A stretch of DNA of 64,000 nt from Bacteroidales bacterium (GTDB lineage Bacteria > Bacteroidota > Bacteroidia > Bacteroidales > Marinilabiliaceae). Of this stretch, positions 19,127-23,887 are shown piece by piece (position 1 is the stretch's first letter; every line of letters starts with the position of its first letter). A program made the position numbers and the translations under genes. The notes beneath the pieces are model-generated. The model was not told the DNA's origin and made no database searches. It saw only the letters and a program-made list of their open reading frames with translations. The stretch is from NCBI GenBank assembly GCA_024401395.1, contig JAKSLD010000008.1, positions 1-64,000 of the forward strand, read 5' to 3'.

Positions 19127-19639
19127 ATGAAACATCGTTTCTTAAGTATGCTGGCTATGCTTGCAATGAGTGTAGCGGCGATGGCTGATGAAGTACCGGG
19201 GGTGACCGTAGAGTATGTAGATGCGGGCACAGCCTCGTATGTTCAGGCCATAAGCGCCATAGGGCGCATAGAGTTCAATGAAGGGAATGCTGTCATTGTG
19301 TTCAAGGACGAAGCAGCCGGGACGGAGAACCTTGGAGCTATTTCTGCTATCAAGAAGATTTCTTTTGGTGGTGTGAGTGAAGAGGATATTAACAAGGGGG
19401 AAACACCTACAGGCATTGTGGAGACAGAACAAAGGGTGAGTGTGACGGCATATCCGAATCCTGTGGCTGACCATGTGCATGTAGATGGCGTAGCCGAGGG
19501 ACAAGTGATACGCCTCTTCTCGTCGGACGGCCGTCTGATGTTCGTCGGACAGCAGTCTGATATAGATATGTCGGGCATGGCTAATGGTATATACCTTTTG
19601 CAGGTAGGTAAGGAGGTAATCAAGGTTATCAAGAAATAA
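19127..19639 (+). CDS. Small secreted protein with T9SS type A sorting domain, copy A
   Basis: 170 aa. Signal peptide MKHRFLSMLAMLAMSVAAMA. Residues ~25-85 hold two SAIxxIxF-like strands (ISAIGRIEF, ISAIKKISF) seen in Bacteroidetes surface proteins. Residues ~103-170 are a type IX secretion C-terminal sorting domain: SVTAYPNPVADHVHV, a beta-rich core with RLFSSDGRLMF, then MANGIYLLQVGKEVIKVIKK. T9SS cargo is exported through the outer membrane and usually anchored there. Protein sequence is identical to copy B at 21626; at DNA level only about three bases differ, all near the 3' end. A FISUMP surface protein follows each copy, hinting that the two work together. Confidence 0.85.
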   Translation: MKHRFLSMLAMLAMSVAAMADEVPGVTVEYVDAGTASYVQAISAIGRIEFNEGNAVIVFKDEAAGTENLGAISAIKKISFGGVSEEDINKGETPTGIVETEQRVSVTAYPNPVADHVHVDGVAEGQVIRLFSSDGRLMFVGQQSDIDMSGMANGIYLLQVGKEVIKVIKK

Positions 19640-19651
19640 AGACCAATCGGC

Positions 19652-19784
19652 GTAGAGACGGTGTGTACACCGTCTTTTGCAAAACATATTGACATCACGT
19701 TAATTTAAGACTGTGTGTACACCGTCTCATGCAAAATGTGGTTGATGCCAATGATATAAAAGACGGTGTGCACACCGTCTCTAC
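19652..19784 (+). repeat. Three palindromic GACGGTGTGTACACCGTC units
   Basis: Hairpin units at 19652-19674, 19708-19727 and 19761-19784, each with arms ACGGTGT/ACACCGT, the outer ones extended to GTAGAGACGG or CCGTCTCTAC. They fill the gap between the T9SS gene and the FISUMP gene and recur in three other gaps of this duplication. Confidence 0.85.
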
Positions 19785-19819
19785 GGAAGAATGTAAAAAC
19801 AATAAAACACGAAAATAAC

Positions 19820-21187
19820 ATGACGAGATTTTTTATTTCGGCGCTAGCCCTCTTGGGTATGGGTACAATGGCGAGCGCGCAGTTTAGTGTATATAAGGAT
19901 GGCAAAGTGGTATTTACCATGCCAGAAACGCCAGACTATGTAGATTTTACATATAATAAGCCAATCACAGGCAAAGATAACGGACACGACTGGGTAGACC
20001 TTGGTCTCTCTGTTAAATGGGCAACGATGAATGTAGGCGCCAACGCTCCTCAGGAGTATGGTTCATACATAGCGTGGGGAGAGACAGAGACCAAGGAGAA
20101 CTATTCTTGGGACACATATAAGTATGGTGGCGAGTTTATTGGCGACAACAAGACCACCCTCGATTCAGAAGAAGATGCTGCTGCTGTCAACTGGGGTGGC
20201 GACTGGGTTATGCCGTCGCAGGCTGACTGGATGGAGATATATAATAACTGTACCTACGAGTGGACAACCCAGAACGGAGTGAACGGCTATCTCATCAAGG
20301 GTTCTAACGGCAACTCCATCTTCCTTCCTGCCGCTGGCTGTCGCAACAACGGCAACCTCTACAACAAGGGCTCTCACGGCTACTACTGGTCGTCGTCGCT
20401 CAGCGAGAGCAACTCGGACCACGGCCGTGGCCTGTACTTCGGCGAGGTCTTCTTCAGCCCTTGGTACGGCTACAACCGTTACTACGGCCAGTCGGTTCGC
20501 CCTGTGTGCCCTTCCGCCGGAAATACCAATGGTCATGTGGCCGTGGACCTTGGCCTGCCAAGCGGCAAGCTGTGGGCAGATTGCAATGTAGGCGCCAGCA
20601 CGCCGGAGGCCAGCGGCGACTACATAGCATGGGGCGAGACAGAGGCAAAGGAGTATTATGACTGGAGTACCTACAAGTACATGCAGAGTGGTAAGTCGGA
20701 GTGGTATTACATCAACAAGTATCAAGCAGATGACCATCAGCTTGACGGCGTATGGTACAAGGATGTAAAATACTATCAAGGCGACAAGAAGAGTATCCTT
20801 GAAGCCAAGGACGACGTGGCAACACAGTCGTGGGGCTCTGAATGGCGTATGCCTACGGCAGCCGAGTGGAAAGAGCTCTACAACAATACAACCCGGACTT
20901 GGACAGATGACTATGAGGGTACAGGCGTAAAGGGCTACATTCTCACCAGTACAAAGGTGGGTCATGAGGGAGCCTCTATCTTCCTTCCTGCCGCTGGCTG
21001 TCGCAACAACGGCAACCTCAACAACGAGGGCACGTACGGGTACTACTGGTCGTCGTCGCTCGACGAGAGCTACTCGTACGACGGCCGTAGCCTGAACTTC
21101 TTCGAGGGCTACTTCTGCCCTTGGTACGGCTACAGCCGTTACTACGGCCTGTCGGTTCGCCCTGTGTGCCCTTCCGCAGAACCGTAG
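19820..21187 (+). CDS. FISUMP surface protein with two variable domains, copy A
   Basis: 455 aa from ATG 19820 (MTRFFISALALLGMGTMASA signal peptide; an upstream in-frame ATG lies within a palindrome). After a YKDGKVVFTMP strand, two Fibrobacter-major-paralogous (FISUMP) domains follow: about residues 55-235 (VDLGLSVKWATMNVGA ... SVRPVCPSAG) and 237-453 (VDLGLPSGKLWADCNVGA ... SVRPVCPSAEP). Each has WGETE, a WGGDWVMP or WGSEWRMP segment, SIFLPAAG and a C-terminal WSSSL...R..L.F...SVRPV block that fits a C-type-lectin-like fold. That last block is hypervariable among the four domains in a retroelement-like pattern (see variable repeats). Probably displayed at the surface; ligand unknown. Confidence 0.85.
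   Translation: MTRFFISALALLGMGTMASAQFSVYKDGKVVFTMPETPDYVDFTYNKPITGKDNGHDWVDLGLSVKWATMNVGANAPQEYGSYIAWGETETKENYSWDTYKYGGEFIGDNKTTLDSEEDAAAVNWGGDWVMPSQADWMEIYNNCTYEWTTQNGVNGYLIKGSNGNSIFLPAAGCRNNGNLYNKGSHGYYWSSSLSESNSDHGRGLYFGEVFFSPWYGYNRYYGQSVRPVCPSAGNTNGHVAVDLGLPSGKLWADCNVGASTPEASGDYIAWGETEAKEYYDWSTYKYMQSGKSEWYYINKYQADDHQLDGVWYKDVKYYQGDKKSILEAKDDVATQSWGSEWRMPTAAEWKELYNNTTRTWTDDYEGTGVKGYILTSTKVGHEGASIFLPAAGCRNNGNLNNEGTYGYYWSSSLDESYSYDGRSLNFFEGYFCPWYGYSRYYGLSVRPVCPSAEP
20342..20512 (+). other. Putative DGR variable repeat A1
   Basis: 57 codons at the C-terminal end of domain 1. Aligned with A2, B1 and B2, the fixed frame is TCG-TCG-TCG-CTC, GAG, TCG, GGC-CGT, CTG, TTC, CCT and GTT-CGC-CCT; the variable codons between are NNC (here AGC, AGC, AAC, GAC, CAC, GGC, TAC, GGC, GTC, TTC, AGC, GGC, TAC, AAC). 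Confidence 0.75.
21002..21172 (+). other. Putative DGR variable repeat A2
   Basis: 57 codons at the end of domain 2 of the same protein. It differs from A1 at 17 amino-acid-changing or silent codons, nearly all by bases 1 and 2 only; exceptions are TCT/ACG and GGC/GGG. Variable codons in the core: GAC, AGC, TAC, TAC, GAC, AGC, AAC, TTC, GGC, TAC, TGC, GGC, TAC, AGC. Confidence 0.75.
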
Positions 21188-21308
21188 GTCGACGAAGTCA
21201 ATGATTTACCATGTCGCCCTTTGCGCCCTAAAAGGCCGTGCCGATTGCCCTCGGAGAGGGTGGGAGGCAGGGGCGGCAGGCAGAAATGAATAAAATCCAT
21301 GCATGAAT

Positions 21309-21388
21309 GTAGAGACGGTGTGTACACCGTCTTTTGTGAATCATGTTGACACCACGGTAATATAAGACGGTGTACACACCGTCTCTAC
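21309..21388 (+). repeat. Palindrome pair after FISUMP gene A
   Basis: Units at 21309-21332 and 21364-21388 face each other (GTAGAGACGG... and ...CCGTCTCTAC) around 31 bp. The rest of the gap to 21625 is unique sequence without a recognisable gene. Confidence 0.85.
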
Positions 21389-21625
21389 GCGGGATGCATG
21401 GATAAATTTTGATTTGTCCAAAAATGAGATGCTATGTCAGGGAATACGCCGCGCAATCTTCTTTATAATAATATGTACCGCATTCCATCTGAATGTATGG
21501 GAAGGGTAGCTTCTGGGTTTATATGAGCAATAAATGGCATTATGTCTACTGAACGCTAGTAATTTAGGAGATGCAATCTTGACAATAATAAATTCACATA
21601 ATATACATGATTAATAAATGATCTT

Positions 21626-22138
21626 ATGAAACATCGTTTCTTAAGTATGCTGGCTATGCTTGCAATGAGTGTAGCGGCGATGGCTGATGAAGTACCGGGG
21701 GTGACCGTAGAGTATGTAGATGCGGGCACAGCCTCGTATGTTCAGGCCATAAGCGCCATAGGGCGCATAGAGTTCAATGAAGGGAATGCTGTCATTGTGT
21801 TCAAGGACGAAGCAGCCGGGACGGAGAACCTTGGAGCTATTTCTGCTATCAAGAAGATTTCTTTTGGTGGTGTGAGTGAAGAGGATATTAACAAGGGGGA
21901 AACACCTACAGGCATTGTGGAGACAGAACAAAGGGTGAGTGTGACGGCATATCCGAATCCTGTGGCTGACCATGTGCATGTAGATGGCGTAGCCGAGGGA
22001 CAAGTGATACGCCTCTTCTCGTCGGACGGCCGTCTGATGTTCGTCGGACAGCAGTCTGATATCGATATGTCGGGCATGGCTAATGGTATATACCTTTTGC
22101 AGGTAGGCAAGGAGGTAATAAAGGTTATCAAGAAATAA
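21626..22138 (+). CDS. Small secreted protein with T9SS type A sorting domain, copy B
   Basis: 170 aa, identical in protein sequence to the gene at 19127: signal peptide, two SAIxxIxF strands and the T9SS sorting domain (TAYPNPVAD ... IYLLQVGKEVIKVIKK). The upstream 60 bp share no similarity with those of copy A, so the duplication boundary lies at the start codon. Near-perfect identity indicates a recent duplication or ongoing gene conversion. Confidence 0.85.
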   Translation: MKHRFLSMLAMLAMSVAAMADEVPGVTVEYVDAGTASYVQAISAIGRIEFNEGNAVIVFKDEAAGTENLGAISAIKKISFGGVSEEDINKGETPTGIVETEQRVSVTAYPNPVADHVHVDGVAEGQVIRLFSSDGRLMFVGQQSDIDMSGMANGIYLLQVGKEVIKVIKK

Positions 22139-22150
22139 TGACCAATCGGT

Positions 22151-22280
22151 GTAGAGACGGTGTGTACACCGTCTTTTGTAAAACATATTGACATCACGTT
22201 AATTTAAGACGGTGTACACACCGTTTCATGCGAAATGTGGTTGATACCAGGTTATAAGACGGTGTGCACACCGTCTCTAC
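22151..22280 (+). repeat. Three palindromic units in duplication B
   Basis: Units at 22151-22174, 22207-22226 and 22257-22280, matching those at 19652-19784; the third contains the perfect 18-bp palindrome GACGGTGTGCACACCGTC. Confidence 0.85.
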
Positions 22281-22315
22281 GGAAGAATGTAAAAACAATA
22301 AAACACGAAAATAAC

Positions 22316-23686
22316 ATGACGAGATTTTTTATTTCGGCGCTAGCCCTATTGGGTATGGGCGTTATGGCAACAGAGGCAAGCGCGCAGATGTATATTATAA
22401 AAGACGGGAAAGTCAAGGTTGCTCTCGATTATACACCAGATTATATCACTTTTGAGAATCCGATGCTCTGTGGTGGAGTTATAGGTGAGGCTGTTGACAT
22501 GGGCCTCTCTGTCAAGTGGTCGAGCGTCAACGTCGGTGCCTCATCTCCTGAACAAAGCGGCAACTACTACTCGTGGGGCGAGACAGAGACCAAGGAGGAC
22601 TATTTTCGGGCGACATACAAGCATGGTGGCACTTTCATCGGTGACAACAAGACCACCCTCGAAAAGGTCGACGATGTTGCTGCTGCCAATTGGGGCGGTG
22701 ACTGGGCAATGCCGTCGCAAGCCGACTGGGAGGAGATATATTTTAACTGCAGCCGCGAATGGACAACCCAGAACGGCGTTAACGGCTACAAGATTACGGG
22801 CTCTAACGGCAATACCATCTTCCTTCCTGCCGCAGGCTATCGCGAATACGGCAGCCTCTACGGCGAGGGCTCCGACGGCATCTACTGGTCGTCGTCGCTC
22901 AACGAGCTCCACTCGAGCCGCGGCCGTAACCTGGGCTTCGACTCGGACTACTTCGGCCCTTGGTACAGCGACAGCCGTTGCAAAGGGTACTCTGTTCGCC
23001 CTGTCTGCCCTTCCGCAGGGAATACCAATGGTCATGTGGCCGTGGACCTTGGCTTGCCAAGCGGCAAGCTGTGGGCAGAATGCAATGTAGGCGCCAGCAC
23101 GCCGGAGGCCAGCGGCGACTATTTTGCATGGGGCGAGACCGAGGCAAAGGAATATTATTACTGGAGTACCTATAAGTATATACAGAGTGGTAAGTCGAAG
23201 TGGTACTATATCAACAAGTATCAGGCAGAAGACCATCAGTTCGACGGCGTGTGGTACAAGGATGTGAAGTATTGCAACCAGGGCGACAAGAAGACAACGC
23301 TCGAGGCAAAGGACGACGTGGCAACACAGTCGTGGGGCTCAGAATGGCGTATTCCAACGGCAGCCGAGTGGGCAGAACTCTACAACAACACAACCCAGAC
23401 ATGGACCAATGACTACGAGGGCACAGGCGTAAAGGGCTATATCCTCACCTGCACAAAGGAGGGTTACGAGGGCGTCTCTATCTTCCTTCCTGCCGCTGGT
23501 TATCGCGACTACGGCAACCTCAGCCGCGGGGACGGCGGCTACTACTGGTCGTCGTCGCTCGACGAGGACAACTCGAGCTACGGCCGTTACCTGGACTTCA
23601 ACGAGGGCGGCTTCTACCCTTTGTACGGCTACGACCGTTACGGCGGCCAGTCGGTTCGCCCTGTGTGCCCTTCCGCAGAACCGTAG
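22316..23686 (+). CDS. FISUMP surface protein with two variable domains, copy B
   Basis: 456 aa from ATG 22316; the signal peptide is almost the same as in copy A (MTRFFISALALLGMG). The stretch after it differs (QMYIIKDGKVKVALDYTPD), then two FISUMP domains follow with the same landmarks (VDMGLSVKWSSVNVGA; VDLGLPSGKLWAECNVGA). Outside the variable blocks its domain 2 differs from copy A mostly at synonymous third positions (TAC/TAT, GTA/GTG, CAA/CAG). The variable blocks are B1 and B2. Together with the small T9SS protein it forms the second surface module. Confidence 0.85.
   Translation: MTRFFISALALLGMGVMATEASAQMYIIKDGKVKVALDYTPDYITFENPMLCGGVIGEAVDMGLSVKWSSVNVGASSPEQSGNYYSWGETETKEDYFRATYKHGGTFIGDNKTTLEKVDDVAAANWGGDWAMPSQADWEEIYFNCSREWTTQNGVNGYKITGSNGNTIFLPAAGYREYGSLYGEGSDGIYWSSSLNELHSSRGRNLGFDSDYFGPWYSDSRCKGYSVRPVCPSAGNTNGHVAVDLGLPSGKLWAECNVGASTPEASGDYFAWGETEAKEYYYWSTYKYIQSGKSKWYYINKYQAEDHQFDGVWYKDVKYCNQGDKKTTLEAKDDVATQSWGSEWRIPTAAEWAELYNNTTQTWTNDYEGTGVKGYILTCTKEGYEGVSIFLPAAGYRDYGNLSRGDGGYYWSSSLDEDNSSYGRYLDFNEGGFYPLYGYDRYGGQSVRPVCPSAEP
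22841..23011 (+). other. Putative DGR variable repeat B1
   Basis: 57 codons at the end of domain 1. Core variable codons: AAC, CTC, CAC, AGC, CGC, AAC, GGC, GAC, GAC, TAC, GGC, AGC, GAC, AGC, TGC. It is the most deviant copy, with GAA, TCG, AAA, GGG and TCT breaking the strict NNC rule. Confidence 0.7.
23504..23671 (+). other. Putative DGR variable repeat B2
   Basis: 56 codons at the end of domain 2, one codon shorter than the others in its 5' third. Core variable codons: GAC, GAC, AAC, AGC, TAC, TAC, GAC, AAC, GGC, GGC, TAC, GGC, TAC, GAC, TAC; a fixed TGG is TTG here. Confidence 0.7.
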
Positions 23687-23807
23687 GTCGACGAAGTCAA
23701 TGATTTACCATGTCGCCCTTTGCGCCCTAAAAGGCCGTGCCGATTGCCCTCGGAGAGGGTGGGAGGCAGGGGCGGCAGGCAGAAATGAATAAAATCCATG
23801 CATGAAT

Positions 23808-23887
23808 GTAGAGACGGTGTGTACACCGTCTTTTGTGAATCATGTTGACACCACGGTAATATAAGACGGTGTACACACTGTCTCTAC
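23808..23887 (+). repeat. Palindrome pair after FISUMP gene B
   Basis: Units at 23808-23831 and 23863-23887, copies of those at 21309-21388 with one base change (CACACTGT). Beyond them, 23910-24000 has no gene. Confidence 0.85.

Follow-up and report, generated by a model that had tools for sequence, protein, structure and literature searches.

Variable repeats of probable DGR origin in two tandem FISUMP-like genes

Four sequence blocks lying in two tandem FISUMP-like genes of an uncultured gut Bacteroidales are, in our reading, variable repeats (VRs) of diversity-generating retroelement (DGR) origin, a conclusion drawn from base patterns in the DNA and to which we assign a probability of roughly 0.93. 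The window, that is, the whole stretch of 64,000 nucleotides that was analysed, corresponds to positions 1 to 64,000 of contig C46 of its genome (G000; 3.30 Mb, 47 contigs, 97.9% complete). The description of the host is based on the close relatives of gene A, which in named records come from MAGs of horse faeces and of ruminants, with Bacteroidales or Salinivirgaceae as their label. In what follows, G000 denotes the own genome, G008, G010, G011, and G012 sister genomes or genomes of the same genus, and G088 a genome of a different family; C numbers refer to contigs of the given genome, C10 and C27 being the DGR contigs of G000.

The four blocks were found at the places where the original prediction had put them. 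Each of the two genes encodes two related domains, and every domain ends in one of the blocks. The features of the two cassettes, in window coordinates, are as follows.

19127..19639, + strand: cassette A ancillary gene, 170 aa, T9SS type A sorting-tail domain (domain scan made on the B copy, identical in protein)
19766..21187, + strand: gene A, two FISUMP-like domains (mechanical ORF start)
20342..20512, + strand: variable repeat A1, in the first domain of gene A
21002..21172, + strand: variable repeat A2, in the second domain of gene A
21626..22138, + strand: cassette B ancillary gene, Por_Secre_tail (PF18962) above cut-off
22235..23686, + strand: gene B, two FISUMP-like domains
22841..23011, + strand: variable repeat B1, in the first domain of gene B, with most of the departures at non-adenine sites
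23504..23671, + strand: variable repeat B2, in the second domain of gene B, shorter by one codon

The true start of gene A is likely the ATG at 19820 (MTRFFISALALLG...), which opens a signal-peptide-like N-terminus. This N-terminus, together with the T9SS-tail protein encoded by the ancillary gene, leads to a predicted cell-surface location, and the products of genes A and B are probably secreted. FISUMP models did not reach their curated cut-offs, the best scores being 31.6 vs 41.65 bits for TIGR02145 (gene B) and 18.3 vs 33.9 for PF09603, and the TIGR02145 search with the whole of gene A gave no match; with scores below cut-off, the window proteins appear to be divergent FISUMP / Fib_succ_major relatives. 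DGR variable domains are expected to have a C-type lectin fold. The AlphaFold model of the variable domain was of low confidence (mean pLDDT 62.6) and its fold matches were meaningless, and comparison of this domain with the PDB yielded no significant fold or sequence match. The variable residues would make up a ligand-binding surface.

The ancillary genes of both cassettes differ at 3 of 513 nt and their 3′ flanks are 99-100% identical, whereas the FISUMP genes lying between these near-identical parts show 47-95% identity per 100 nt. These values indicate that the cassette copies are mosaic.

Third bases of the variable codons are fixed

Codon alignment of the four blocks bore out the base pattern from which a DGR had been proposed. 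It recovered the 28 replacement columns in the frame used originally (29 with the TGT/TAT column just upstream of 20342), the presence of C at base 3 in every copy in 21 of them, and the codon missing from B2. The exceptions listed at that time (TCT/ACG/TCC, GAA, AAA, TTG, and the missing codon) are also real, and most of them sit in B1, the most divergent block, which may reflect another template version or decay. Codons of the NNY type ended in C in 93 of 98 cases in the replacement columns, as compared with 159 of 252 (63%) in the flanks (p = 1e-13).

The opposite pattern, in which third-base changes prevail, had been described outside the blocks for domain 2 of genes A and B, and it was observed here as well: 39 differences at third bases vs 16 at first or second bases. 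Inside the block, the A2-B2 pair showed 1 third-base difference vs 30 at first or second bases (Fisher p = 2e-10), the former becoming 4 when B2 was realigned with another gap placement. Third-base differences amounted to 2/51 in the VR vs 69/118 in the flank for A1-A2, and to 3/50 vs 74/119 for A1-B2; the two domains of the G012 cassette gave 0/51 vs 77/119. Between domain 1 and domain 2, 65-74 of 115-119 third bases differ in the flanks, which suggests that these flanks are old duplicates. In the blocks, on the other hand, only 2-6 of ~50 third bases differ, with first and second bases differing at 18-34 sites. The homogenisation signal is weaker where the flanks are alike (A2-B2, p = 0.009; B2 and domain 2 of G088, p = 0.095). 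The pairwise VR-vs-flank p values come from related sequences and are hence non-independent, and the main tests, among many that were made, gave p values no higher than 1e-10. Non-adenine sites of the window blocks are thus homogenised relative to their flanks, a mark of DGR targets, and the homogeneity at third bases would be explained by rewriting from one shared template that is miscopied at particular bases, and not by selection or gene conversion alone.

At their 3′ end the VRs share the conserved sequence GTTCGCCCTGT, a candidate for the site at which mutagenic homing is initiated. A stable hairpin (z = -6.8) follows the VR at the C10 DGR only; no counterpart was found after the window VRs, and the Rfam search gave no match.

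Two complete DGRs in the same genome

The window had been reported to contain neither a reverse transcriptase nor a template, and none was present on the whole of contig C46. The window locus is therefore not a complete DGR cassette: C46 encodes no reverse transcriptase with the motif (I/V/L)GxxxSQ, defined for these enzymes in PMC3521204, and there is no matching template. A DGR core exists in the same genome, in the form of two complete DGRs with other templates.

C10:2890-4026: reverse transcriptase of the C10 DGR
about 2656-2861 of the C10 locus (L027): template TR10, non-coding, AAC-rich
C27:1797-2996: reverse transcriptase of the C27 DGR
about 1564-1775 of the C27 locus (L028): template TR27, non-coding, AAC-rich
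C10 order: MutS_I-like ORF, Avd, 138-aa ancillary gene, FISUMP-like target, template, reverse transcriptase
C27 order: target (cut by the contig start), MutS_I-like ORF, template, reverse transcriptase

Both reverse transcriptases, the only two in the own genome, carry the DGR motif IGNLTSQ and YVDD and match phrog_1423 with E = 3e-96 and 1.5e-97. Avd adjoins the C10 enzyme and is present in only one of the two DGRs. An ORF resembling MutS domain I (PF01624) occurs in both loci (L027:137-670 and L028:833-1390), with a score above cut-off in the first only. The genome-wide check proposed originally, for a template next to a DGR reverse transcriptase and avd, gave two such enzymes beside AAC-rich non-coding templates, one of them with Avd; the template of the window blocks was not found.

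Five VRs belong to the two resident DGRs. Compared with TR10, changes affected 25/58 adenines and 1/137 other sites in the C10 cis VR, 26/53 and 2/131 in the C21 VR, and 24/53 and 3/131 in the C43 VR; compared with TR27, the corresponding values were 24/57 and 4/154 in the C27 cis VR and 31/57 and 3/154 in the C15 VR. Three of them (C21, C43, and C15) are located on contigs other than that of the retroelement. On C21, which gave no reverse transcriptase match, the VR is separated from the two contig ends by >15 kb and ~20 kb; what the fragmented assembly shows is separate contigs, from which a real genomic distance between these VRs and their DGR is deduced.

Contig C7 begins (L128:1-1123) with a duplicate of the C10 locus at 94% identity, comprising the avd tail, the ancillary gene, and the N-terminus of the target, which probably continues on C43. 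Target cassettes, as this duplicate indicates, are copied to sites apart from the core. Its avd fragment was considered as a decayed third DGR and rejected on account of that identity; apart from it, no third avd or MutS_I-like gene was found in G000.

Window blocks follow adenine columns of templates that did not write them

Of the 43 columns occupied by adenine in both TR10 and TR27, 35 varied among the window blocks, as compared with 15 of 100 columns with adenine in neither (p = 3e-14), so that variation at template-adenine positions, which characterises DGR targets, is seen here through templates that serve as proxies for the cognate one. Changed adenines were replaced by G, T, and C in 50, 38, and 12% of cases in the known VRs and in 59, 36, and 6% in the window (p = 0.19). 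The share of sites still A was 48% in the window and 47% in known VRs, a match that is approximate since the window spectrum was taken on all-C replacement columns only, with invariant adenines left out. Third bases, adenine columns, and substitution spectrum together support the predicted identity of the blocks as DGR targets with an AAC-rich template.

According to the proposed mechanism, a DGR reverse transcriptase would copy a non-coding template repeat rich in AAC codons, misincorporation would occur at template adenines, and the resulting cDNA would replace the VR. As AAC would be converted into NNC, no stop codon could arise and base 3 would stay C. The targets would be the two tandem two-domain FISUMP-like proteins, located away from any reverse transcriptase.

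Each window block shows 26-41 non-adenine mismatches to TR10 and TR27, which indicates that the blocks were not written by those templates; they would form a third template class. Altogether, nine variable repeats in seven FISUMP-like genes of the own genome are the targets of at least three template classes.

Related cassettes in other genomes

Over 237 nt, G000 and G011 have the same TR27 sequence but different cis VRs, and a G011 VR on another contig has changes at 22/52 adenines and 0/120 other sites. Upstream of the cis target of its complete DGR, G011 has the 170-aa ancillary gene that also precedes the window genes, which ties the window cassettes directly to DGR loci. Further VRs of the window class were found in the sister genomes G008, G010, and G012 and in G088, where the same two-domain cassette (L070 / L114) reaches up to 85% DNA identity; its occurrence in another family suggests horizontal transfer. 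The framework codons look genome-specific by eye, with TGT and GGT in both G012 copies and GGG in both G088 copies.

Palindromes GTAGAGACGGTGTGYACACCGTCTCTAC in inverted pairs bracket the FISUMP cassettes at 19652-23887 (8 copies, none elsewhere in the window), and related cassettes of other genomes have these palindromes or similar ones as well (L029, L048, L052, L112, and L114). A short relic at 21434-21502 resembles, with 74% over 23 aa, the N-terminus of a protein in G010:C52 that we take to be a REP-associated transposase from reading its sequence and not from a database match. A role of the palindromes and the relic in cassette movement is a guess.

Search for the third template

The template used as query was reconstructed from the blocks with guesses at invariant columns, and the real template should still score near the top. 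A matching template was absent from the own genome, the 14 other genomes of the genus, the rest of the 71 family genomes, and a 393-genome sample of the order. No match came from IMG/VR, either for the C10 reverse transcriptase or for two patterns of the template, and phages and plasmids gave none to a template of the window class. A match in G010:C52 was rejected as a template, being a coding VR. In the five carrier genomes (own, G008, G010, G012, and G088), neither template nor full reverse transcriptase of the window class was found, G088 (99% complete) being the strongest case for true absence of the template.

Four more reverse transcriptases of the genus (G003, G009, G010:C69, and G012) were matched by Pfam but missed with the DGR enzyme as query. 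One contig of G010 stops inside a DGR reverse transcriptase, and the template side is missing. In G000, contigs C7, C43, and C27 end inside FISUMP genes, indicating that such repeats break the assembly. At about 4660-4840 of L115 (G407:C5), a template-like AAC-rich repeat adjoins a FISUMP target. No reverse transcriptase was found in the vicinity; the sole match to the C27 enzyme in G407 lies on a contig other than C5.

Origin and present state of the blocks

An origin with no retroelement involved, through ordinary diversifying selection on a binding face and gene conversion among paralogous domains, would find a favourable setting in paralogous tandem genes with shared flanks, near-identical ancillary genes, and near-identical 3′ flanks. 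Gene conversion, however, should also have evened out the variable columns, which vary most of all, and selection does not fix C at base 3, which is far commoner in these columns than in the flanks. Neither process accounts for the fact that adenine columns of independent resident templates predict which columns vary, and we regard this origin as extremely improbable. Hardly more credible is the rewriting of the blocks by the C10 and C27 DGRs from their own templates. Both have VRs on other contigs, and short stretches are common to the templates and the window blocks, but retrohoming would have overwritten the non-adenine mismatches counted above; this reading is contradicted, unless the resident reverse transcriptases serve a third, unlinked template.

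Among the readings that retain a DGR origin, we lean towards the view that the four VRs were made by a third DGR with a matching template, still present in the strain and missing from the assembly because of a gap. The original prediction had left the choice between a mutator acting in trans and a relic. Action in trans gained a precedent, both resident DGRs having targets on other contigs. As a relic, the blocks would have been written by a DGR since lost, or whose template was replaced, and would no longer be changing in this way. We consider this the main rival, though less likely: five carrier genomes have no matching template, B1 has drifted at non-adenine sites, the window VRs have no downstream hairpin, and such a history has been proposed for orphan target genes of Treponema denticola (PMC4891356). 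On the contrary, A1, A2, and B2 are nearly free of mutual third-base drift while their flanks differ at many third bases, the genome-specific framework codons of G012 and G088 fit a template recently present in each genome, and assembly demonstrably cuts DGR cores in the genus. It is improbable that a third-class DGR resides on a plasmid, a phage, or other mobile DNA systematically missing from bins, from where it would rewrite chromosomal surface-protein cassettes across several species of at least two families; a location of the third-class template elsewhere, such as on an unbinned element, appears similarly improbable. If a third mutator is active, the independently randomised and probably secreted proteins of the strain would outnumber those suggested by its assembled DGRs.

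Comparison with known systems

Codon third bases alone can reveal DGR targets in a window without a reverse transcriptase, and such targets escape surveys restricted to VRs with an adjacent reverse transcriptase, a limit stated in PMC8144416. As in the Treponema denticola DGRs (PMC4891356), paralogous targets lie far from a core; there, the VRs are C-terminal and some match a template type absent from the isolate. The window targets differ from the FGE-sulfatase/TvpA targets of that organism in being FISUMP-like with two VRs per gene, and in sharing their genome with two further intact DGRs, each of which has remote targets of its own. The target domain family, Fib_succ_major, is shared with DGR targets of the human microbiome (DUF1566 and Fib_succ_major; PMC4159848). 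Unlike those targets, whose variable region is C-terminal, the window proteins have two variable domains, including an internal one, and the searches revealed no template for them. DGRs with several VRs in one ORF have been reported in 31 cases (PMC6642488), and cyanobacterial remote variable proteins are encoded distant from the reverse transcriptase (PMC7517822). The window resembles these systems in its multiple VRs per target and in the distance from a reverse transcriptase, and differs from them in the host group and in having targets without an identified core. Remote, multiple, and orphan DGR targets, as well as Fib_succ_major targets, are thus already described; the window adds an example that has two variable domains per protein in tandem genes and a template class without a known core.
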